31,511 nt of DNA from a virus. Shown here piece by piece: positions 2,978-29,666 of the stretch. The translations under genes and the position numbers were made by a program. The stretch is taken from IMG/VR virus record IMGVR_UViG_3300044911_003152, positions 1 through 31,511 of that record; one strand, given 5' to 3'. The first letter of the stretch is position 1, and each line of letters starts with the position of its first letter. The notes under the pieces were generated by a model. The model was not told where the DNA came from. It did not search any database and saw only the letters and a list, made by a program, of their open reading frames with translations.

Positions 2978-4753
2978 TTACCCGAAATAGACGGCGGTGA
3001 GCACCTGACCGTTGCCCGGCGCGTAGGTCGCGCCGTAGAGCAGCTCGGTACCATCGGCCTCCACCGAGTCGAGCTGGGCGAACTCGTCGTTGCTGCCCTG
3101 GGAGCCGTCGGTCACGGGCACCTGCGGAGCCGTGCCGCGGATGAGCAGGACGGCGCCCTGGGCGCGCCGCGACAGGACGAGGCTCAGGCTGGAGCCGTCG
3201 CCCGTGAAGTTCTCCACCCGCTGGACCGGGGCGGCCGGGCGGCGGTGATCGTAGATGGCCGCGTTGGCGATGGTCGTCGCGTTGGCGGCGACCTTGACCA
3301 CGGCGAGCTTGACGTGGTTGGCGGGCAGCGAGGGGACGGTGGGCGAGCCGGCCGGCGTGCCGGCCGTGACCGTGGCGACGCCGCTGGCGTCGAACGAGAT
3401 CAGGTCGTAGCGAGGGTTGGTCGCGTCGGCCGCGCCGATGGCGAGGTTCGTGTTCTGCGCGCCGGCGATGCGCGTGCCGCTCGCGTTGTAGACCGTCGCG
3501 GCAGCCACCTGGACGCTCATGTCCGGCGAGGACTGCGCGGTGACGAGCCCGGCGGTCGCGGTGTCCTGGTTCACGACCACGCCGTTGGCGTGGACCGGAG
3601 CGGCCACCTCGATGTCGCGGCGGCGGATGTTGGCCAGGAGCGAGGACGCCCCTTCCTTGCCCAGGTCGGCCAGCTTGGACTCGGCGATGGCGGCGCTGCC
3701 GTTGATGTGCGCGTCCACAATGGCGCCGTCGGCGATGTGCTCGGCGGCGATGCTGTCGTCGGCGATCTTGCTGCCGTCCACGGCGTCGGCGCCGATCTTG
3801 CCGTTGGTGACCGCGCCGTCGTTCATCTTGGCCGAGGTGATCGAGCTGTCCAGGATCTTGGCCTCGGTGACCGCGTTGTCGGCCAGGGCGTCGGTGCCGA
3901 CCGCGCTGTTCTGGATGTGCTCCGCGCCCACCGCGTCGTCCGCCAGCTTGTCGGCGGTGACCGCGTCGGCGGCGAGCTGCGCCGTACCGACCGCGCCGGC
4001 CGCGATGCCGGCCGCCACGCGGGAGAGCATGACCGAGTCGGAGCGCAGCGCGTCCAGGGCCATGTCGGAGAGCGTGACGATCTGCGGGTAGACGAGGCTG
4101 TACGCCTCCTCCACCGTGACCGGGTTGTTCAGGGTCAGCTCACCGCTGCCGGTGAGGGGCCACTCGTCGGAGTAGAACCGGATCGTGTAGGTGCCGCCCG
4201 TGGTACGCGCCGAGGCCGTGATGATGGCCCAGACGTCGTTGCCGGTGTTCGCGTCGACCAGCCGCGCGCCGTTGGTCTTGTAGACCTGGGCCGCGTACTT
4301 GCCCTTCTGACCCAGCATCACCTTGCCGGAGTTGGTGTTGAAGGCGTTGGCCTGCCCGGAGTTGCCCGCGGACACCTCCAACAGGACGGGAATGCCGACC
4401 ACGCTGCCGTCGCCGATCACGCCGGCCGTGGTCGTGAAGGGGAACTCGGTCGTCTCGGGCGAGCTGCTGATGGCGATGGACGTGCCGTTGGGATTGCTCA
4501 GGTCCCCGGTGGCCACGAGCTGGAGGATGCGCTTGGAGCCGAGCACGCCCGACTTGGCGCCGCTGGAGAGGTGTGCGTCGTCGATGGCGCCCGACGCGAT
4601 GTGCTCCGAATCGACCGCGTTGTCCGCGAGCTTGGAGCCGTCGATGGCGTCGGCGGCGATCTTCGCCCCCGACACCTGCCCGTCGCCGATGTCGGCGCTC
4701 TGGATGGAGCCGGCGTCGTACTGACCGGCGTAGACGAAGACCTGAGTTGCCAT
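2978..4753 (-). CDS. Tail fibre protein with decapeptide repeats
   Basis: This 591-residue protein is a likely host-binding fibre. The start at 4753 has GGAGG 9 nt upstream, which is preferred over the longer frame from 4792. Two blocks of ten-residue repeats stand out. Residues 15-64 carry five copies and residues 253-352 ten, with a pattern like DAVDGSKIAD, NAVDSEHIAS, GAIVDAHING: a hydrophobic pair at positions 2-3 and another at 8. Such periodic repeats are typical of trimeric fibre shafts. Between them is a Gly/Thr-rich beta domain (about 65-225). The C-terminal third, after RRRDIEVAAPVHANG, looks like a structural beta domain ending in a short segment before the stop. It sits with the other tip genes downstream of the tape measure. 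A whisker or baseplate fibre is an alternative role. Confidence 0.8.
   Translation of the reverse strand: MATQVFVYAGQYDAGSIQSADIGDGQVSGAKIAADAIDGSKLADNAVDSEHIASGAIDDAHLSSGAKSGVLGSKRILQLVATGDLSNPNGTSIAISSSPETTEFPFTTTAGVIGDGSVVGIPVLLEVSAGNSGQANAFNTNSGKVMLGQKGKYAAQVYKTNGARLVDANTGNDVWAIITASARTTGGTYTIRFYSDEWPLTGSGELTLNNPVTVEEAYSLVYPQIVTLSDMALDALRSDSVMLSRVAAGIAAGAVGTAQLAADAVTADKLADDAVGAEHIQNSAVGTDALADNAVTEAKILDSSITSAKMNDGAVTNGKIGADAVDGSKIADDSIAAEHIADGAIVDAHINGSAAIAESKLADLGKEGASSLLANIRRRDIEVAAPVHANGVVVNQDTATAGLVTAQSSPDMSVQVAAATVYNASGTRIAGAQNTNLAIGAADATNPRYDLISFDASGVATVTAGTPAGSPTVPSLPANHVKLAVVKVAANATTIANAAIYDHRRPAAPVQRVENFTGDGSSLSLVLSRRAQGAVLLIRGTAPQVPVTDGSQGSNDEFAQLDSVEADGTELLYGATYAPGNGQVLTAVYFG
3698..3997 (-). 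repeat. Ten tandem 30-bp coding repeats in the tail fibre
   Basis: Ten consecutive decapeptides (residues 253-352 of the fibre) fit the pattern x-A-V/I-x-x-x-K/H-I/L-x-D/N. The spacing is exactly 30 bp without interruption. The DNA copies have diverged but keep the periodicity, so this is an old protein repeat rather than a fresh DNA duplication. Confidence 0.8.
4562..4711 (-). repeat. Five tandem 30-bp coding repeats in the tail fibre
   Basis: A second block of the same decapeptide lies near the N-terminus of the fibre (residues 15-64), for example DAIDGSKLAD and NAVDSEHIAS. It is separated from the ten-copy block by about 190 non-repetitive residues. Confidence 0.75.
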
Positions 4754-9922: not shown

Positions 9923-12900
9923 TCACCCGCCCCGCATGGCGCGCGCCCCTGGGACCGCCCGGCGGTCGAGCATCCGGGCCACGTCGGAGCCGGGGTTGCC
10001 GCTCTGAATCACGATGCGCCCGATCAGCATCCGCAGGAGCGCGTCAACCCCTCGCCCATCGGGCAGGATCTGAACCGTCGTCGCGCCGCCGGACGCGGCC
10101 GGCGTCCACCCGGCGTTGCGCGCCGCCAGCTCCGCCTCGCCCATGCTGCGCATCGCCCGGTTGTTCAGGATGCCCTCGCCCGCCTTGGCGAGGATCGTGA
10201 CCTCGTCACCGTTCAGGCGGCGACGGATGTCACCCTGGAGGGACTGGACGAGCCCTCCGTCGGCGAAGCGCGGCGCGCCGGCCATGGCGTGGGCCGCGGC
10301 CTGGAGCAGGTTGCCCGGACCGCGCACCACACCGCCGGAGTGGAAGATCTTGCCGCCGGTCGCCTTCCAGGCCGACTTGAGGCCACCGCCGATCTTGGCG
10401 AAGAAACCCTTGGTCCCGCGCCCGGCCGCCGTCACGAACTCCCAGAACGACCGCCCGGCCGCCGTGATCCAGCTCCACAGCGCCTTGCCACCCTCGGCGA
10501 GCGCCCGACCCACCTTGGCCCCGGCCCGGCCGAGGCCAAGGCCGATCTGGGCGAACGCGAGGCCGAGGCCCTTCGCGAGGCCCCAGACGACCAGGGGGAT
10601 GAGCTTCAGCAGCGCCCAGATGATTTGGGGCAGGGCGCGCACAATGGCGACGATGATCTCGGGGAGGTGCTCGATAAGCTTCGCCACGATGAGCCCGACG
10701 CCTTCGATGAGCGCGCTGATGATGTCGGGCAGCGCGTCCACGATGGCCATGATGATCACCGGGATCGCGTCGATGATGGCGATGAGCAGCCCCGGCAGGG
10801 CATCGGCGACCACCTTGAACAGCTCCGGCAGGAGCTTGACGATGCCCTGGATCACCGTCGTCACAATCTCGGGCAGCCGCTGAATCAGGAGCGTCAGCGC
10901 CTGGAGGATGCCTTCGATGATCACCGGGATCGCCTGCACAAGGGCGTCGATGAGCACCGGCAGGGCGTCGATGAGCGCGTTGATCACCGTCTTCAGCAAC
11001 GGACCAATTTTCGGCGCGATGGCCTTCAGGAGGTCGGCGATACCCTTGGCGAGCCCTTCGATGACCTTCGGGAGCGACGCAATGATCGTGTTCAGCACCG
11101 TGACGGCGATCTTGGGCAGCTCCTGAACCACGCGCAGGAGGACCGCGTTGACCTGCTCCACGATGCGACCCAGCACCTTGTCCGGCTGGGCGTCGGCGTT
11201 CTCGCGGCGGAGCTTGTCTTTCTGCGTCTCGCCCTCGGCCTGCGCCTTGGCGGCCTCGCTGAACTGGCCCTTGGCGCGCAGCTCTTCCACGCGCTTGCGG
11301 GTCTCGGCGTCCACGTCGCTCAGGCGCTTGTTCAGGGCCTCTTTCGTGTTATCCGGGTTCGTGAACGCGGAGAAGACCTCCGCCGGCGCGGAGAGGAGCC
11401 GGTCCAGCGGCGCGGTGGCCGCCGACAGCGCCGGCGACAGGAACTTGGCGTTGAACTGCTCGAACAGCTTGGAGGGCAGCTCCAGCAACGGCCCCAGGTA
11501 GCGGCCGAGGTCTTCGCCCAGCAGATCCTTGAGCGGAGCGACGATGGCCTCGTTCAGCCCGGAGACCATCCCGTTCAGCCCGGCCACGAACGTAGCCGCG
11601 CCCGACTCGCCCATGTTCGTGAACGCCTCGGTGAGCGAGCTGCCCAGGTTGGCGCCGACGTCGGCGAGCTTGCCCGGAATCGCCAGCAGGTCGTCACCCG
11701 CTTTGCTCAGGCCGGTCTTAAAGCCGGCGTACATGCCGGCGATCTGGCCGCCAACGGCCTCACCGATGCCCTTGAGGCGGTCGACCAGGGCGTCGCCGAG
11801 GACGGCGCGGGTCGCGGTGCTCATCGCCTCAGAAACGGCGCCAGCGCCCTCCACGAGCTTGTCCTTGACCCAGCCGCCGGCGTCGCTGACGGCCTGCGCC
11901 GCCACCTCGAACGCGCTGGCGACCTTGGCCGAAGTGCCCTCGCCGAAGACGGCGTCCAGGCTGGACGAGACGGCGGCGCCCAGGCGCGTGCTCAACCTTT
12001 CCGCCCCGTAGGACAGCGACTCCAACAGCAGCGACCCCAGGCTTTCGGCGGCGTCCTGCGCGCCCTCGGTGAGCGCGTCCCACAGGCTGCCGATCAGCCC
12101 CCTGAGCGAGCCTTCAACCTCCGGCGGAACCTCGGTCGCCCCCCAGACGTTGAACCGCTTGGCGAGCCCGGCGATGCCCTCGGCGATCTGGATTGAGACG
12201 GCGACCTCGGCGGCCTTGCGCTTGTCGCGCAGCTTGGCCTGGACGTCCTCCAGATCCCTGGCCGCCTGCGTCTGGATGCGAGTGACCTCGGCGGCGGTGG
12301 CCTTTTCCTTGGCCTGGACAAGACGCGATACCTCCTCCTCCTGGTCCAGGCGCGCGGCCGGCGACAGCAGCTTGGCGCGCTCCGCGGCGGCGGCGCGGAT
12401 CTCTTTCAGCTCCGCCTCCAGCGACGTCGTGGCGGCGGCGGCCCGTTTGTCGGCGAGCTGCTGGACCATGAGCGCCTGCGTCTCCAGCAGGTCAATCACC
12501 TTCTTGAGCGCGGCCTGTTCAGCGATGGCCACCTGCCCGTCGGTGGCGCCGGCCTCCTGCATCGCCTCGCGCTGTGCGGCGGCGGCGGCCTCGATGGACG
12601 TGACGGCGCGCTCCTGTTCCTGGAGCATGGCGTCCAGGAACGCCACGCCGGCCTCGGAGCCGAGCTGTTCGGCCTGTTCGCGCAGGCGAGCGAGACCGTC
12701 AAGGGCCTGGGCCACCGCCTGTTCGTGCTCTTTGCGGACGCGCTCCGCCTCGCGCGCGGCGTCTTTGGACTGCCGCTTGCGCTCGCGCTCCGCATCCTTG
12801 GCCGCCTTCACCTTGGCCTTCAGATCTTCGTCTCGCGCCCCGATCTGTGCGGCCGCCTCGCTCTCACCCTCGGCAATGTTTTTCGCGAGCCCGGCGGCCT

Positions 12901-15181
12901 CCTCGCGGGACTGGATGAGCGACCGCTGAACCTCGCGAGACCGCGCCTCCAGCTTGCCCAGCTCCTCCTCGGCGGCGGCCATCGACTTGACGTGCGGGTT
13001 GACCCCGCCGGCCAGGGCGCGGCCGAAACCCTCCAGCGTGGTGTTGGCGTCCTGGCGGTACTTTTCCGCGGCGGCCCTGGCGCCCTCCGCCTCGGCGCGC
13101 AGGGCCTCCATCCGCGCGTCCAGGGTCGCCTTCTCATTCTCCAGGTCCCCGATGCGCGCCCCGATGCGCGCGGACGCCTCAGCCGCGGCGGCCTGCGCCT
13201 CCTCCGGGGCAGCGTGGAACGCTTCTTTGACGTCCTTCAGGTCTTCTTTGTTGAAGCCCAGGCGGGTCTCACCCGCGGCGTTCTTGGTGCTGTTCGGAGA
13301 GCCCTTGAGCAGGACGGCCGCACCGCTCCGCAGGCGGTCCAGCGCCGCCTTCATCTCCTCCACGTCCTTGAAGCCGGCGGCGAGCGCGGTGTCCAGGCTG
13401 GCGTTGGACATGGCCTCGGTGGACTTGCGAATGGCCTCCTGCGCGGCGTCGCCGAACTCGCTGTCCCGGCTGGCGAGGCCCTTGCCCAGCCAGTCGCCGA
13501 ATGCCTGCCCCAGCTCCATGCCGACCGCGGCGATCATGGCGAGCACGTTGGGGTTCTTCAGTGCTTCCTTCAGCGACTTCAGCAGGCCCGCACCGGAGAG
13601 CTTCACGCCGGTCGAGAGCCCTCGTCCGTAGCTCAAGCCGTAGTCCTGGCCAAAGCGCGCGGCGGTGGCGCCGACGCTGGAGGTGACCTTGCCGAGCGTC
13701 GCCAGCTTGTCGCGCAGCGCGTCCAGGCCGGACATGGCCGCTCGGCCGATCTTCACCGCGGCAAGCCCGGACAGCAGGAACAGGATGGTTTTGCCGTGCT
13801 CGGCCGCAAACTGGCCCAGGCGGGCGACAGCGGCCGCCAAGCTGCCGAGGCTATCCACGAGGCCGCCGGAGGCGAGCGCGCTCGACAGCGCGTTCATGGT
13901 GGCCGTGAGCGCGGGCAGCATGCGGTCGCCGATCTGGATCAGCGCGGCGGTCACCCGGTTCTTCAGCACCTTCCACTGTTCGTTGAAGGTCGCGTTCACC
14001 TTGGCCGCGGCGCGGTCCACCGCGCCCGTGCTGTTCTTCACCGCGTCCAGGTTCTGGTGCAGGCTGTCGAAGCCCTGCGAGGTGAGCGACAGGACGCCTT
14101 TCAGGCCATCGACGTCGGTAAAAAGCTGGGTGATCTCGGAAGCGGAGCCCTGCGTCTTCGCGATCACGTCCTCCAGGACGCCGGTGAGCTGCTTTCCCTT
14201 CAGGGCGGTGACCCCGTATTCGATGCCCAGGGCCTTGAACCGCTCGCCCACCTCTTTCGGCGGCCGGGCCAGGGACACCATAATCTGCCGGACCGAGGTC
14301 AGGGCCTCCGACGTGGAGAGGCCGCCCAGGGTGAGCTGGGCCATGACCGCCAGCACCTCGTCCAGCGAGACGCCGAACGCGGAGCTGATGCCGACGATCT
14401 GGCCAAGGCTGCTCGCCAGCTCGGGCATCGTCGTGACGCCCTTGTCGACGGTCACCCGGAGCTTGTCCGTCACCTGCGCGGCGGTGAGGCCCGATTTCTT
14501 GTAGGCGTTCAGGACGGCGTTGACCGCGCGGACCACGTCCGCGGTCTCCGCTCCGCCCGACGCGGCGGCCTTCTGCGACGCCTCCAGGACCGCGAACGCG
14601 CCAGCCGCGCCCTCCACCGCAGGGATGCCGGAGGAGAGCGTGTCGTACAGGCCCTTGGTCAGGTCCAGCAGGTCGCGAGAGCTGCGCCCGGACAGCTCCA
14701 GGAGCTGTTCCCGGTAGCGACTGACCGAAACGCCCGACCCGTCCAGCAGCGTGTTGACGTCGGCAAGCGACCGCTCGAAACCGGACGCGGCCTCGGCGGC
14801 CTTGGCGAGCCCGGCCGCCCCGAAGACGGCGGCGAGTTGCCCCTTGAAGTCGGCGAGCGGACCGAGCATCCGGTTGAACGCGCCGGAGGTGCGTTTCTCC
14901 AGGCCCTCCATCGCGGCAGCGCCCTTGGCGCCGGCGGTGGCCGCGGCGGACTCCAGCGACGACAGCGCCTGCGTTCCGGCAGCGACGGTCCCCTTGAGCT
15001 TGCCCAACGCGCGGGCGGTGCGGCCCTCGAATCCCTCCATGGAGCCGGCCGCTTTGCCGGACACCCTGGCCGTCGCGGTCTCCAGCTCGGCAATGACCCG
15101 GGTGGCCTGTTTGATGCCGGCGCGCAGCTTGGAGTCAACGACCTCCAGCAGGAGTGCGATGCGATGCGAGGTGTCGGACAT
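9923..15181 (-). CDS. Tape measure protein (1752 aa)
   Basis: This is the longest gene in the window and the ruler of the tail. The start at 15181 is chosen because GGAGG lies 4 nt upstream, in preference to the longer frame at 15217. Residues about 135-420 match the conserved phage minor-tail/tape-measure region (FERSLADVNTLLDG, DKGVTTMPELASSLGQIVG, LTLGGLSTSEALTSVRQIM). Long coiled coils follow at about 665-1000. Residues about 1350-1540 form a run of hydrophobic helices with a mostly 11-residue period (LPGLLIAIIDA, IPVIIMAIVDA). The C-terminus has the usual FHSGGVV, ADGGLV and AKAGEGILNN motifs. At roughly 0.15 nm per residue, the size suggests a tail near 260 nm; this is an estimate. The chaperone genes that normally precede it in the same direction are here divergent. 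Confidence 0.95.
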   Translation of the reverse strand: MSDTSHRIALLLEVVDSKLRAGIKQATRVIAELETATARVSGKAAGSMEGFEGRTARALGKLKGTVAAGTQALSSLESAAATAGAKGAAAMEGLEKRTSGAFNRMLGPLADFKGQLAAVFGAAGLAKAAEAASGFERSLADVNTLLDGSGVSVSRYREQLLELSGRSSRDLLDLTKGLYDTLSSGIPAVEGAAGAFAVLEASQKAAASGGAETADVVRAVNAVLNAYKKSGLTAAQVTDKLRVTVDKGVTTMPELASSLGQIVGISSAFGVSLDEVLAVMAQLTLGGLSTSEALTSVRQIMVSLARPPKEVGERFKALGIEYGVTALKGKQLTGVLEDVIAKTQGSASEITQLFTDVDGLKGVLSLTSQGFDSLHQNLDAVKNSTGAVDRAAAKVNATFNEQWKVLKNRVTAALIQIGDRMLPALTATMNALSSALASGGLVDSLGSLAAAVARLGQFAAEHGKTILFLLSGLAAVKIGRAAMSGLDALRDKLATLGKVTSSVGATAARFGQDYGLSYGRGLSTGVKLSGAGLLKSLKEALKNPNVLAMIAAVGMELGQAFGDWLGKGLASRDSEFGDAAQEAIRKSTEAMSNASLDTALAAGFKDVEEMKAALDRLRSGAAVLLKGSPNSTKNAAGETRLGFNKEDLKDVKEAFHAAPEEAQAAAAEASARIGARIGDLENEKATLDARMEALRAEAEGARAAAEKYRQDANTTLEGFGRALAGGVNPHVKSMAAAEEELGKLEARSREVQRSLIQSREEAAGLAKNIAEGESEAAAQIGARDEDLKAKVKAAKDAERERKRQSKDAAREAERVRKEHEQAVAQALDGLARLREQAEQLGSEAGVAFLDAMLQEQERAVTSIEAAAAAQREAMQEAGATDGQVAIAEQAALKKVIDLLETQALMVQQLADKRAAAATTSLEAELKEIRAAAAERAKLLSPAARLDQEEEVSRLVQAKEKATAAEVTRIQTQAARDLEDVQAKLRDKRKAAEVAVSIQIAEGIAGLAKRFNVWGATEVPPEVEGSLRGLIGSLWDALTEGAQDAAESLGSLLLESLSYGAERLSTRLGAAVSSSLDAVFGEGTSAKVASAFEVAAQAVSDAGGWVKDKLVEGAGAVSEAMSTATRAVLGDALVDRLKGIGEAVGGQIAGMYAGFKTGLSKAGDDLLAIPGKLADVGANLGSSLTEAFTNMGESGAATFVAGLNGMVSGLNEAIVAPLKDLLGEDLGRYLGPLLELPSKLFEQFNAKFLSPALSAATAPLDRLLSAPAEVFSAFTNPDNTKEALNKRLSDVDAETRKRVEELRAKGQFSEAAKAQAEGETQKDKLRRENADAQPDKVLGRIVEQVNAVLLRVVQELPKIAVTVLNTIIASLPKVIEGLAKGIADLLKAIAPKIGPLLKTVINALIDALPVLIDALVQAIPVIIEGILQALTLLIQRLPEIVTTVIQGIVKLLPELFKVVADALPGLLIAIIDAIPVIIMAIVDALPDIISALIEGVGLIVAKLIEHLPEIIVAIVRALPQIIWALLKLIPLVVWGLAKGLGLAFAQIGLGLGRAGAKVGRALAEGGKALWSWITAAGRSFWEFVTAAGRGTKGFFAKIGGGLKSAWKATGGKIFHSGGVVRGPGNLLQAAAHAMAGAPRFADGGLVQSLQGDIRRRLNGDEVTILAKAGEGILNNRAMRSMGEAELAARNAGWTPAASGGATTVQILPDGRGVDALLRMLIGRIVIQSGNPGSDVARMLDRRAVPGARAMRGG
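10570..11130 (-). repeat. Hydrophobic 11-residue repeats in the tape measure
   Basis: This part of the tape measure gene encodes tandem amphipathic/hydrophobic helices with a mostly 11-residue period and a Leu-Pro or Ile-Pro start (LPDIISALIEG, LPVLIDALVQA). A few units are longer. Similar runs in other tape measure proteins are linked to tail packing or membrane insertion on DNA entry. Confidence 0.6.
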
Positions 15182-15231
15182 TGGGCCTCCCCTGGAGTTC
15201 AGGGCGAAACCTACCACGCGCCCCGTGGGAC

Positions 15232-15261
15232 TTCACCCAGCGGGCGCCGGCGTGTTATGAA
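15232..15261 (+). promoter_or_regulatory. Candidate promoter for the plus-strand chaperone genes
   Basis: TTCACC (15232-15237), an 18-nt spacer and TATGAA (15256-15261), each matching 4 of 6 sigma70 consensus positions. It lies in the 105-nt divergent gap between the tape measure start and the first chaperone gene, about 25 nt before its ATG. Because the chaperone genes are inverted they need a promoter of their own here. Confidence 0.4.
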
Positions 15262-15286
15262 CACCTCCCACCCCACGGGAGAGACC

Positions 15287-15886
15287 ATGACGACCAACCC
15301 GACCATCGCCCCCAACGACCCGTTTGCCGCCCTGCGAGACCTCACCGAGCAAGTGCCCGTCGGCGGCGACGTCCTCACGGTGCGCACCGCGCGCCTGTCT
15401 CAGGACGAAACCGCGCTGCGCCTCATCGGACAGCTCGACATTGCCGGCCTCGGTGTCGTCCTGGCCGAGGCCCTGGGCACCGCCGGCGGCCTCGACGCCA
15501 CGGGCGGTGACCGCAGCGTGCTCACGAAGATGCTCCCCCTGGTGCCGGCGCTCCTGCCCAAGCTCTGGGAACAGGCGCGCACCGTGCTCGGACAGCAGCT
15601 CATCCCGTGCATCCGCGGGATCGCCATCGTCATGCTGGACACCCGCGAGAATGCGCGCGTGCTCGCCAAGGCCGGCGTGTTGCCCGCGGCCGAGGCCGAG
15701 GTCTCCGGCGCGTGGAAGGGCTCCCAGGCGGTGCAGGACCACCTGCTGGAGAACCTCTCCACGCCGCAGGCCGCGCGCGTCGTGGCCGCGGCCTTCCGCG
15801 TCTCCAACTGGCGTGAGATCGTGGGAAACCTGACGCCCCTGGCGACGGCCAAGGCGCCGGGGGCGATGAGCGAGGCGAAGAACTAG
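15287..15886 (+). CDS. Tail assembly chaperone, G-like (199 aa)
   Basis: This is the first of two plus-strand genes and sits exactly between the tail tube and tape measure genes, where siphophages carry the tail assembly chaperones (lambda G and G-T). The ATG at 15287 has GGGAG about 5 nt upstream; the in-frame ATG at 15257 has none. The protein is mostly helical, with an N-terminal region typical of a cytoplasmic assembly factor (RTARLSQDETALRLIGQL, about 29-46). Near its end a -1 frameshift signal leads into the next gene. It would bind the tape measure and recruit tube subunits, and is probably absent from the virion. The assignment rests on position plus the frameshift rather than on sequence family. 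The orientation, opposite to the tape measure, is very unusual. Confidence 0.8.
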   Translation: MTTNPTIAPNDPFAALRDLTEQVPVGGDVLTVRTARLSQDETALRLIGQLDIAGLGVVLAEALGTAGGLDATGGDRSVLTKMLPLVPALLPKLWEQARTVLGQQLIPCIRGIAIVMLDTRENARVLAKAGVLPAAEAEVSGAWKGSQAVQDHLLENLSTPQAARVVAAAFRVSNWREIVGNLTPLATAKAPGAMSEAKN

Positions 15887-16422
15887 CCGACGCGCTACCC
15901 GGCCCGGCCACTCTGGTCGCCATCATGGCGCAGCGGTCGGGCATGAGTGCCGAGGACTACTTCTTCACCCGGACCAGGGCGCAGTTTCTGCTGGACGTGT
16001 CGGCGTGGCAGGCGTCGTTCACGACGCCCACAGTGTTGCTCGCCCGCGCCTTCGGACTGTCCAGCGACGAAGGCCCCCAGCAGCCCCGTCAACGCGAGGT
16101 GGCGGAGAGTGCCGCTCCTGCGGTCGGGCAGGACACCGCGCCGCCTCCACGGCGCCCTGGAGGCAACCGGACGGCCCCTCCACGATGGTATCGTCAGGTC
16201 AACGGCCGCCACTACGACGTCCACGACATGGACACGAGAGACCCCACGCGCTTTGCCGCTCGCGCCGCAGCCCTGCGCGGCGTCTGGTCTCAAGTGTCGA
16301 AGTGGTCGGCAGGGAAGTGGGGGACGGGACAGACGTTCGGCGTGGCAGACGAGCCGGTGGCGCGGACCACCCTCGTCCAGGCACTGACGAGGGTGAAGGC
16401 CCGCGCGGAAGCCGGCGCTTAG
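15287..16422 (+). CDS. Frameshifted tail assembly chaperone fusion, G-T-like (378 aa)
   Basis: This is the predicted -1 frameshift product. The ribosome reads 181 codons of the first gene, slips one base back on GGGAAAC (15823-15829), and continues in the frame of the second gene to 16422. The new frame is open from the slip site through the stop of the first gene and into the second, which I checked codon by codon. After the slip the protein reads PDAPGDGQGAGGDERGEELA and so on, and then joins MAQRSGMSAEDYF. This is the same logic as lambda gpG-T, in which the T part binds tail tube subunits. How often the slip occurs cannot be told from sequence; a few percent is usual for such signals. Confidence 0.75.
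15823..15865 (+). other. -1 programmed ribosomal frameshift signal
   Basis: The heptamer G GGA AAC (15823-15829) is in the correct frame of the first chaperone gene (X XXY YYZ) and differs from lambda's G GGA AAG only in the last base. After a 4-nt spacer comes an 11-bp stem, 15834-15844 with 15855-15865, interrupted by one G-U pair and closed by a 10-nt loop. Slippery site, spacer and GC-rich stem are all as in known -1 signals. Confidence 0.85.
15925..16422 (+). CDS. Second chaperone frame, T-like part (expressed by frameshift)
   Basis: This is the downstream frame of the chaperone pair, 165 codons from an ATG at 15925 that has no ribosome site. The frame is already open well upstream and joined to the first gene by the -1 signal, so it is probably made only as the fusion and the ATG is not needed. 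It contains a helical segment, EDYFFTRTRAQFLLDVSAWQ (about 10-29), a low-complexity Pro/Gln/Arg linker (about 50-85), and a C-terminal basic region with RQVNGRHYDVHDMDTRDPTR. Its stop TAG overlaps the stop of the convergent tube gene (shared bases TTAG, 16419-16422). Independent translation cannot be excluded. Confidence 0.65.
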   Translation: MAQRSGMSAEDYFFTRTRAQFLLDVSAWQASFTTPTVLLARAFGLSSDEGPQQPRQREVAESAAPAVGQDTAPPPRRPGGNRTAPPRWYRQVNGRHYDVHDMDTRDPTRFAARAAALRGVWSQVSKWSAGKWGTGQTFGVADEPVARTTLVQALTRVKARAEAGA

Positions 16423-17015: not shown

Positions 17016-17612
17016 CTACGGGATGAAGCCAACGGCGCCCAGCGCGTCCTGTGGGAGCCGGATCGTGAACGTCAACGTAACGCGCTGCAAACCGTCGGTC
17101 ATGTGGTGTCTACGGCGCTCCTCCGGCGCTCCGAAGGTCCCCCTGGAGCGCGACTGGACCATCAGCTTCTGCCCGGTGGCCTGCGGCGAGTCCACGTCGG
17201 CGAAGTCGAGCACGTCCACCGCCCAGCCGGGCAGGCCGGCGCGCCGCTCGGTGAACCGGGCCTGAACGGCGGTCGCGAGGTGCTCGCACCGCACGCCCAG
17301 CGGGTCTTTGTCGCCGGCGTCGGCGGTCGGATCGCCCACCCGGCTGAAGACGTCCACTTGCGCAGACGACCAGCCGCCGGCCCCGGCCAGCTCCTCCAGC
17401 CAGCGCACCTCGACCCACGCCTGGGCCTCGCGCGCGCCATCGGCCTCGCTCTGCCATTCGTCGCCGGCCCCGGCCCCGCCCTCGGCCAGATCGGGATCGG
17501 CCAGGGCGTAGTCGTGGATCACCGGAAACGTGCCCTCCGGGCAGGTCACGGTGGAGCCGAGCCAGACCTGGAACGACCGCTTCAGATCGGAGTGGTCTCG
17601 GTGCTCGCTCAC
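17016..17612 (-). CDS. Tail terminator-like protein (198 aa)
   Basis: The start is GTG at 17612, overlapping the stop of the neck gene as GTGA, with GGAG 7 nt upstream. The longer minus-strand reading from 17960 runs inside the neck gene and is a shadow. Order (adaptor, stopper, gp10-like, this gene, tube) matches the slot of gpU/gp17-type tail terminators, which cap the tube and join it to the neck. The family's usual size is 130-200 residues. The mixed alpha/beta sequence has a C-terminal beta strand pair (QRVTLTFTIRLPQDALG, about 176-192) typical of such proteins, and a Gly/Ala/Glu-rich loop at about 41-60. Role is inferred from order; sequence similarity is weak by eye. Confidence 0.6.
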   Translation of the reverse strand: MSEHRDHSDLKRSFQVWLGSTVTCPEGTFPVIHDYALADPDLAEGGAGAGDEWQSEADGAREAQAWVEVRWLEELAGAGGWSSAQVDVFSRVGDPTADAGDKDPLGVRCEHLATAVQARFTERRAGLPGWAVDVLDFADVDSPQATGQKLMVQSRSRGTFGAPEERRRHHMTDGLQRVTLTFTIRLPQDALGAVGFIP

Positions 17613-23347: not shown

Positions 23348-24970
23348 TCAACCCCCACCGGAGCTGATGCCCTGGGTGTAGTGCGGCCGGATCGTCGTCG
23401 TCGGCTCCACGATGCCCGGACCGAGCCCGGCCGGTGACAGGCTCACAAGGCCGATGGCGACCGTGCCGTCCGATGCCGGGCGCACCGACTCCAGCAGGAA
23501 GCGCCGCCCCGCCCAGCCGGCCCTGGAGTCGGTGACCTCGATAACCGACCCGTAGGGCAGGCGCAGGATCGCAGGCTCGGTGCAGAGGTAGCCCACCCGC
23601 TCGAACACCTCCGACTGACGGGCCACCTGTTCGGAAAGCAGGAGCACCGCGGTCGCGGCGTCGGCCACGTCGGCGGCCTGCCACCGGAAGTCGGCGCTGC
23701 GGCCCCAGCGGCTGGCCGAGGCGCGGCACCGCTCATCGTTGTCCGCCCTGCGCTCCAGGGTGTTGGGCGCGTGTCCAGTCGAGCCCCGGTAGCCCCACTC
23801 CAGGATGAAGGCGTTGCGCACCGCGCTCCGGGCGGTCTCCTGGACGTCCGTCCGCTGGAAGGCGTTGACGCCGTAGGACAGCGCGAGCGCCGGCGGCGCG
23901 TCCGGCCTCGGCGTGAGGACCACGTCCCACCCGAAGCGCCCTCCGACCGCTCCGAAGACCACCGGAAACTGCCCTCCGAAGCGGCTCGCCAGGAGCCCCA
24001 ACAGAGTGTCGCCCGTCTGCCGTTCGTTGAACAGGACGCCCACCGTGTAGCGGTTGAGCACGCGGTTGGCCGGCCGAATGCGGTCCGTCGCCAGCTCCTG
24101 CCACTGGTCGCGGCCGTAGGTGTGGACCATGTGGTCGATGACGTCGCCGAGGCCCGCCAGGGGCTGTTCCTCCGGGCCGAGCATGCCCAGGATCGTGCCG
24201 GTGAAGAGGCTGTTGTCGCTCCAGGAGGCGGCGGGCACGTCCACGGCGCTGTAGAAGTCCCCTCGGCCGTCCCGCATGCGCTTGATCGCTGCGCCGGCCA
24301 CGACCACGACGTCCGCTCCAGGCCCCTCCTCGCCGGTCCGCGCTCGCAGGACGTCCAGGTGGCCGGGATCGTCGGGGTCGCCGTGGATCGGGTGTCCGGC
24401 CACGAGACAGCGCACGGTGTCCACGTCCACGTTGAACAGGGTCACGAGCGGCACGCCGTACACCCGGCCGTAGACCACGGGCACGGTGGCGCCCTTGCTG
24501 TTCTCGTTCAGGTTGCTGAAGCGCCCCGGATCGGCCGTCATCGCCGGCGGGAACACCGTGTCGGCGGTCGAGCTGGGCTCCACGGCGGAGAGCGTCACGA
24601 TGCGCTCGTCCAGGTTGAACGAGGGCGAGTCCACGACACCGCGGTACAGCTCCACCGCGTCGGCCAGGGTGGCCTCGCCGGCGTAGGCGTAGACGAACAC
24701 CTCCAGCGCCTGGAGACGCGCTCCGGCGCGCCGCATGGCCCACAGGTCCAGGCGGTCGAGGGCGATGGTCAGGCTGACCTGATCGCCACCCGGAGACGAC
24801 GCCCCAAGCTGAAGCTCGCGGCCGGGCAGGTCGAGCGACTCCAGGGCCTGGACGAACTCCAGCGGCGGCCGTCCGGCGGCGAGCGGCACGCTGAAGGCGC
24901 CGGACTCGCACAACCCGGCCAGCAGGTCGTCACCGCGCAGGACCACCAGCGGCGTGAAGGCGCCGTTCAT
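23348..24970 (-). CDS. Probable tail-tip or baseplate-hub protein (540 aa)
   Basis: This large beta-rich protein overlaps the upstream gene by 4 nt. The N-terminal part (about 40-160) has an LSLTIALDRLDL-like barrel strand region. A conserved-looking PVVYGRVYGVPLVTLFNV stretch lies at about 163-180. A long C-terminal part has SVIEVTDSRAGWAGRRFLLE (about 475-494), as in hub proteins of the T4 gp27/lambda J N-terminal type. It ends in a flexible Gly/Ser tail. Such proteins normally sit after the tape measure; here it lies about 8 kb upstream of it, among accessory genes. The assignment is tentative. An unrelated virion enzyme scaffold is an alternative. Confidence 0.55.
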   Translation of the reverse strand: MNGAFTPLVVLRGDDLLAGLCESGAFSVPLAAGRPPLEFVQALESLDLPGRELQLGASSPGGDQVSLTIALDRLDLWAMRRAGARLQALEVFVYAYAGEATLADAVELYRGVVDSPSFNLDERIVTLSAVEPSSTADTVFPPAMTADPGRFSNLNENSKGATVPVVYGRVYGVPLVTLFNVDVDTVRCLVAGHPIHGDPDDPGHLDVLRARTGEEGPGADVVVVAGAAIKRMRDGRGDFYSAVDVPAASWSDNSLFTGTILGMLGPEEQPLAGLGDVIDHMVHTYGRDQWQELATDRIRPANRVLNRYTVGVLFNERQTGDTLLGLLASRFGGQFPVVFGAVGGRFGWDVVLTPRPDAPPALALSYGVNAFQRTDVQETARSAVRNAFILEWGYRGSTGHAPNTLERRADNDERCRASASRWGRSADFRWQAADVADAATAVLLLSEQVARQSEVFERVGYLCTEPAILRLPYGSVIEVTDSRAGWAGRRFLLESVRPASDGTVAIGLVSLSPAGLGPGIVEPTTTIRPHYTQGISSGGG

Positions 24971-27968: not shown

Positions 27969-29666
27969 TCAGGAGAGGTAGGGGGCGATCCCAAGGCCGG
28001 GGGCAGGGGCGGCGGCGTTCCAGGCGGTGAGCAACCGCTGCACCTCGGCGCCCGGACCGCGCACCCAGAACCCAAGCTCCAGGGCGAGCGTCGCCCAATC
28101 GGCGTCCACCGGCCCCAGCTCCACCTGGAAGGGCTGTTCCGCCGTGGCGAGGACCGTGAGCAGGGGCTTGGCGAGCGCGGCCGTATGGCGGGCGCCCAGG
28201 CCCACCACCGACACGGTCTGCCACCCGAAGGGATCGGGGAGCTGCGCGGAGCTGGGCAGCTCCGGTTCCGCGTCGGCCTCCAGGGCTCGCGACTGCTCCA
28301 ACCCGTGCGCCCCGCAGGCCGGGCACGACCACGCCAGCGGGCAGCGGCAGCGGTGCATGTGCGCGCCGCATCCGCAGATCGGCGCCTCGGCCTCGCCTTG
28401 CCCGTCACCCTCCGGGGGCGCCTCCGGGGGCGCCAGGGCGCGGCGGAGGGCGGCCGCTCCGGGCAGGGCGGGCCGGGCCGGGGGCAGGTTGGCGAGGCGC
28501 GTGGCGAGCTGCTCCATGGCCTCATCGGCGGCGCCGGCGGCGGCCTCGCGGGCGACCGCCACCGTCTCGCCGTCGACACCGCGGGCCACGACCAGATCGG
28601 TGACCGCGGCGCCTCCGACCTCGGCCCCGTTGACGACCTCGGACACGCTGAACGTGGGGACGTGGTAGATGCGCTCGCGCTCGGTCAGGTCGATCAGCTC
28701 CTGGTTCAGGGCGCGGCGGGTCTTGATCCACTGGCGCTGCGCGGCGCTGTCGGGCGGGTGGGAGGCGATCTGCCGGCGGGCGAAGTTCAGGCGCGACTCC
28801 AGATCGCGCAGGGTGTCCCGCTCGCTCGGAGTCGGCGAACGCCAGCCGATGGGCGCCTGCGGCGGGTCGTTCAAGGCCGCGGTCGCCACCGAGTCCGGGT
28901 CCACCGCGGGCCGCTCCGGCGCCTTGCCGGGCTTGAAGACCAGCGAGCACTTGCAGTTGCTCCGGCAGGGCGTGGCGCCCGCGCGCGGCACCGTGGGGAG
29001 CGTCTCTCGCGTGTACGGGCCATAGGCGGCGAGCAACGGGCACTCGGCACAGTGGTCCGCGTTGCCCAGCACCCACACGATCAGCTCGCCCGGCGGGCCG
29101 CCGTCCACCGCGCCAAGGTTGAAGGCCGCGCCGGTGGCGTTGGCGTATGCCTGGGCGCGGGTCGCGTAGGGCTGCCGGCCGGGCATGTTGGGGACGCCCT
29201 CCGCCATGTCCTGCGCGAAGCGGGCGGCGGCCGCGTGTTGCCCTTCCACCATCGCCTTGAAGCGCGGCGACAGGGTCTGAATCCCCAGCGTCGTCTCCGG
29301 GGGCAGCTTGCCCCGCGCCGCGAAACCGAGCTTCCACGACGCCTGGAAGTGGCGGGTGATCGTCGTCTGCCAGCGGCGCTCCAGGTCGGAGACGGCCGCG
29401 CGGAGCGCGTCCTGGCGAGCGGCCGCGGTGGCGAGCTTGGCGCCGGTGGTCGGGTCGAACCCAGCGCGGATGCGGGCGGTTTTGCCCCGGAACACGCCGG
29501 CGGCCGCGTGCCACTCGCTCGCAAACGCGCCCCGCACGTTGGCGAGCTGCGCGTTGGCGAACGCGGTGGAGGCGGCCTCGGCCATCGTCGCCTGCGCGTC
29601 CAGGCCGGCGAGCCCGATCAGGTCGAGGGCGAGCCCGTCACCGTGGTCGGCGCCGCAGTCGCACAT
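27969..29666 (-). CDS. MuF-like head morphogenesis protein with extra Cys cluster (565 aa)
   Basis: The start shares one base with the portal stop (TGATG). Residues about 100-245 resemble the Mu gpF/SPP1 gp7 family of minor head proteins. A helical N-terminal part leads to NADHCAECPLL (202-212) and CRSNCKCSLVF (234-244), a zinc-binding set typical of the family (W...d..C..C, then C..C.C). Beyond about residue 300 the chain is longer than minimal members. It contains a helical region and then a second Cys-rich cluster with ICGCGAHMHRCRC and WSCPACG (430-452), before a C-terminal domain of about 110 residues. Family members sit inside the head next to the portal and help DNA ejection. The second cluster is of unknown use. 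Confidence 0.85.
   Translation of the reverse strand: MCDCGADHGDGLALDLIGLAGLDAQATMAEAASTAFANAQLANVRGAFASEWHAAAGVFRGKTARIRAGFDPTTGAKLATAAARQDALRAAVSDLERRWQTTITRHFQASWKLGFAARGKLPPETTLGIQTLSPRFKAMVEGQHAAAARFAQDMAEGVPNMPGRQPYATRAQAYANATGAAFNLGAVDGGPPGELIVWVLGNADHCAECPLLAAYGPYTRETLPTVPRAGATPCRSNCKCSLVFKPGKAPERPAVDPDSVATAALNDPPQAPIGWRSPTPSERDTLRDLESRLNFARRQIASHPPDSAAQRQWIKTRRALNQELIDLTERERIYHVPTFSVSEVVNGAEVGGAAVTDLVVARGVDGETVAVAREAAAGAADEAMEQLATRLANLPPARPALPGAAALRRALAPPEAPPEGDGQGEAEAPICGCGAHMHRCRCPLAWSCPACGAHGLEQSRALEADAEPELPSSAQLPDPFGWQTVSVVGLGARHTAALAKPLLTVLATAEQPFQVELGPVDADWATLALELGFWVRGPGAEVQRLLTAWNAAAPAPGLGIAPYLS

Follow-up and report, generated by a model that had tools for sequence, protein, structure and literature searches.

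The locus between the probable tail tube gene and the tape measure gene of this virus very probably encodes two tail assembly chaperones of the G/GT type, which would share a single start codon and arise by programmed -1 ribosomal frameshifting. This reading, drawn from the sequence, is supported by the geometry of the signal, by a -1 frame that stays open, by codon usage that moves into that frame after the G stop codon, by the lack of a Shine-Dalgarno sequence for T, and by the canonical genomic slot. The mechanism is ordinary, and G/T is a member of an already known kind of frameshift gene. The part that deserves a second look is the inversion of the cassette. The window, by which we mean the whole stretch of DNA analysed, is a virus record of 31,511 bases (70.5% GC, no N) from an uncultured metagenomic source, and is possibly a fragment. 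Coordinates of the features are collected in Table 1.

Table 1. Coordinates of the G/T locus, its frameshift elements and the neighbouring head and tail genes.
Feature	Position	Strand	Remarks
G-like 0-frame ORF, 199 aa	15287-15886	+	ATG 15287; upstream RBS-like GGGAGAG; TAG 15884-15886
T-like -1 extension, 197 aa after the predicted shift	15829-16422	+	ends with TAG 16420-16422
T-frame ORF as expected from a gene finder	15925-16422	+	ATG 15925, without Shine-Dalgarno sequence
Slippery heptamer GGGAAAC, read G_GGA_AAC	15823-15829	+	0-frame codons GTG GGA AAC
Spacer CTGA, 4 nt	15830-15833	+	between heptamer and stem
Hairpin	15834-15865	+	11-bp stem (15834-15844 with 15855-15865), 10-nt loop
Tape measure protein gene	9923-15181	-	phrog_1272, E 7e-48; PF10145, E 4.3e-25
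Divergent intergenic region, 105 bp	15182-15286	.	between tape measure and G starts
Probable major tail (tube) protein, 194 aa	16419-17003	-	position only
Neck/tail-completion protein	17609	-	phrog_5, E 3e-4
SU10-like adaptor	18731	-	PF24175
Portal	29666	-	phrog_9232

Predicted slip site, hairpin and reading frames

The sequence-only reading had described a GGGAAAC heptamer in the proper frame, a short spacer, an 11-bp stem closed by a 10-nt loop, and a -1 frame running open through the next gene. Each of these elements was recovered. The heptamer lies within the G ORF, 21 codons ahead of its stop, and the stem contains a single U-G pair among its 11. In the -1 frame a stop at 15814 is followed by an open frame from 15817 to the TAG at 16422, giving a predicted fusion of 379 residues. 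RNA folding, which had been proposed as a check, gave a predicted -25.8 kcal/mol for the 39 nt 3' of the heptamer, and equally stable folds were found in only 0.12% of the 39-nt windows of this GC-rich fragment.

Codon-usage scores trained on the other genes followed the same division of frames. Over 178 codons of G the 0 frame scored +73.7 and the other two plus-strand frames were negative; the 0 frame kept a good score as far as the G stop, and over 15830-15883 the -1 frame scored only about 0, both of which count against the frameshift reading. Past the G stop the -1 frame was the best plus-strand frame over 15887-16050 (+7.6 and +9.6), and it was weak in the proline-rich middle of T (16050-16250). 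None of the start codons in the T frame is preceded by a Shine-Dalgarno sequence, which fits expression of T by frameshifting only. Minus-strand ORFs over 15287-16422 were rejected as shadows of the plus-strand coding.

By this model, most ribosomes would read the 199-aa G and stop at 15886. A minority, held up at the GC-rich hairpin while GGA occupies the P site and AAC the A site, would slip onto GGG and AAA and read on as far as 16422, yielding a GT fusion of 379 aa. On the lambda pattern, the role of G would be to coat the tape measure protein, and that of the T part of the rarer GT to recruit the tail tube protein. That ribosomes shift at this site and that the products act as chaperones are both inferred from the sequence. 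Two orphan ORFs can thus be read as one gene with two products, an arrangement that a gene finder would miss.

Tests of the signal against chance

In combination, the heptamer and the stem are above chance; the heptamer alone is at chance. GGGAAAC occurs three times in the window against 2.76 expected, so the heptamer by itself is not special. In-frame heptamers of the form X_XXY_YYZ with Y = A or T are rarer, and about 9,200 codons contain only 4, including the site at 15823. GC-rich hairpins are common in the fragment, and 2.7% of its 50-nt windows contain an equally stable fold. We then kept the G protein fixed and redrew the synonymous codons of the 22-codon overlap from the phage's own usage; 2.7% of the draws produced an in-frame heptamer at some point of the overlap, and 0.2% produced a fold after the site at least as stable as -25.8 kcal/mol (z = -4.0). 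Dinucleotide shuffles of 50 nt gave a milder result for the stem (z = -2.43). The codon GGA makes up 4.8% of glycine codons in this phage, and the genes used contain some 48 Gly-Asn or Gly-Lys pairs, of which only the one at the slip site and one in the tape measure gene have it. All of these tests depend to some degree on the site having been pointed out beforehand.

A scan against Rfam gave sub-threshold chance matches only. The match to htlv_FSE at 16143 was rejected, as it scored 20.9 bits where the cut-off is 45 and is 300 nt away from the site.

Comparison with known systems and distant kin

The conserved -1 frameshift of lambda gpG/gpGT (Xu, Hendrix and Duda 2004, as cited in PMC3483164 and PMC5009743) is the reference case. 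In the lambda model many copies of G bind the tape measure protein, and the tube protein is brought in by the T part of GT, the rarer product (PMC5009743). The present locus resembles lambda in having a heptamer close to where the first ORF ends, a -1 frame open through the second, a slot beside the tape measure gene, and a short first product with the second as a fusion, which is predicted here. It differs in that G and T show no sequence similarity to the lambda proteins, in its strong hairpin, and in lying on the strand opposite to the tape measure gene. The lambda heptamer is G_GGA_AAG, as compared with G_GGA_AAC here.

GGGAAAC itself has been reported in chaperone genes of Burkholderia phage KL1 (gp18/gp19; PMC3483164), Caulobacter phage Colossus (PMC3556154) and the archaeal virus HCTV-1 (PMC5009743), which share with the window, as does R26L (below), both the heptamer and the kind of gene. 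Because several phages and an archaeal virus are reported to slip at GGGAAAC in their chaperone genes, the predicted frameshift is well explained. In E. coli, A_AAG is more shift-prone as the second half of the heptamer than A_AAC (PMC5009743), which counts against the frameshift reading.

Distant kin were found through the tape measure protein, and slip sites were sought in the gene preceding it. Dinoroseobacter phage R26L (L011:3430) has GGGAAAC with the -1 frame open to 3810 and the tape measure gene at 3818. Vibrio phage V-YDF132 (L023:2820) has AAAAAAG with the -1 frame open to 3080 and the tape measure gene at 3084. Two further loci carry GGGAAAG (L003) and AAAAAAC (L008) in this gene, and in both the -1 frame stays open until shortly before the tape measure gene. 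The remaining loci examined contained no convincing slip site. The architecture thus recurs in the same slot in some distant kin.

Differences from the window were also seen. The R26L heptamer lies 10 nt before the stop and is not followed by a GC-rich stem at 4 nt, and in R26L and KL1 the chaperone genes are, as far as seen, in line with the tail operon. Mycobacterium phage Typha (L018:1737-2617) shares the order stopper, terminator, tube, chaperone pair annotated as a joined CDS, and tape measure; unlike the window it has all of these on one strand, and its pair shows no detectable similarity to G or T. As a separate observation, the apparent GGGAAAC frameshift in R26L (L011:3430-3810) joins the annotated pre-tape-measure chaperone to the next gene, which is annotated as a hypothetical protein.

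Identity of the products

No homologue of G or T was found in PHROGs, Pfam, NCBIfam, PDB sequences, 50,697 phage records or the viral contigs reached by pattern, and none of G in 72,556 plasmids, a set searched with G only. Scans of viral contigs with G, T, the tube protein, the tape measure protein, the portal, p23348 and the protease as queries, scans of genome contigs with the tape measure domain, and tblastn against phages and plasmids likewise returned no G/T homologue. The tape measure domain scans reached distant phages only, most of them AT-rich. Tail chaperone families can diverge past recognition (PMC5009743). An AlphaFold model of G built with no alignment (pLDDT 45) gave an all-helix impression and was too poor for a fold search, as was a model of the tube protein, also built with no alignment.

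The name chaperone is therefore given by position and architecture, because neither product has a detectable homologue. The sequence-only reading had placed a lambda G/GT-type signal in a chaperone gene; the signal, the open frame and the slot held, but neither product drew a family match, and the word chaperone is to be taken in this positional sense. By position, a chaperone function of the G/T products is probable. With this locus, a phage lineage that has no close sequenced kin contributes one more well-formed case of a known recoding signal.

Genomic slot and orientation of the cassette

On the minus strand the genes run in the order portal, further head region, adaptor (18731), p18130, the gene at 17609, p17016, tube (16419), tape measure and fibre genes, with G/T lying on the plus strand between the probable tube gene and the confirmed tape measure gene. 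The tube candidate had no family match. This position is the standard slot of tail assembly chaperones.

The sequence-only reading had overlooked that the cassette is inverted relative to the remaining tail operon. G/T is the only coding unit accepted on the plus strand, and all 25 other accepted genes are on the minus strand. The G and tape measure genes start back to back across the 105-bp gap, both with ribosome-binding sites, and the T and tube genes end tail to tail with their stops overlapping in TTAG. G/T does not run in the direction of the tape measure gene, the direction that is typical of chaperones without being strictly defining. Among the annotated phages viewed and the contigs with listed ORFs, the slot was co-directional with the tape measure gene, and the window is the exception. 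A full-text literature search of incomplete coverage found no report of an inverted chaperone pair.

We consider the chances roughly even that the G/GT cassette is truly inverted, with a divergent promoter of its own and the late operon transcribed antisense through it. A cassette inverted against the late operon would need a separate promoter, for which the 105-bp gap upstream of G is the simplest place. The best promoter-like match in that gap, TTCACC-18-TATGAA on the plus strand from 15232, agrees at 8 of 12 positions, and 13 of 300 shuffles contained one as good; a simple scan for promoters and terminators found nothing. Late transcription of the minus strand would run antisense through G/T unless stopped.

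An alternative explanation of the orientation is an assembly error, with G/T on the minus strand in the real genome; the frameshift signal would be unaffected. The record is a fragment of an uncultured metagenomic virus, and the co-directional slot in all compared phages also points this way. Against it, the sequence contains no N and the junctions are clean, with the shared TTAG at the tail-to-tail stops and both ribosome-binding sites in the divergent gap. In addition, the two junctions share no inverted repeat above 8 nt (shuffled sequences gave a mean of 7.3 and a maximum of 11), a result that speaks against flipping through repeats as well as against the usual type of assembly error. We regard such an error as unlikely, and inversion through recombination at repeats was rejected, as the junctions have none.

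Genes inserted on the other strand of a phage late operon are typically morons. G/T could be such an unrelated opposite-strand insert, frameshifted or not, with the true chaperones encoded elsewhere, and both its strand and its lack of homologues would suit this. However, since G/T fills 15287-16422, the gap between tube and tape measure would then hold no chaperone gene; the minus-strand frames there score poorly, with a weak shadow signal only, and a frameshift-type signal in exactly that slot would be a coincidence. We therefore hold a moron to be quite improbable. Least probable of all is that G and T are separate proteins, T being translated from its own start or by re-initiation (ATG 15925, 39 nt past the G stop) with a coincidental heptamer and stem: the chance-level heptamer count and the common 50-nt folds would agree with this, but no T-frame start has a Shine-Dalgarno sequence, the heptamer and stem together are improbable under the synonymous redraw, and a like layout is seen again at this position in distant kin.

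If the inversion is real, the supply of G and GT would be uncoupled from late tail transcription, and possibly limited by it, with the G:GT ratio still set by frameshifting. It would also be a natural test case for the need to co-transcribe the chaperone genes with the tape measure gene, an order that is usually taken as fixed.

Other genes of the window

Four further minus-strand genes drew attention. The head maturation protease (1268-2575; phrog_207, E 1e-14) has a long coiled-coil C-terminus and is placed after the tail fibre genes and not beside the portal, an unusual position. A 540-aa protein encoded at 23348-24970 had no family match and looks by eye like a tail tip or hub protein; its gene is placed upstream of the neck genes and a long way from the tape measure gene. 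The gene after the portal (27969-29666) encodes a protein that is MuF-like by position and by eye, with cysteine/histidine clusters at both ends that resemble metal-binding sites. Finally, the product of 2978-4753 is fibre-like, contains many degenerate repeats of the AIxxSKIADDAIDG type, and matches tail fibre PHROGs.
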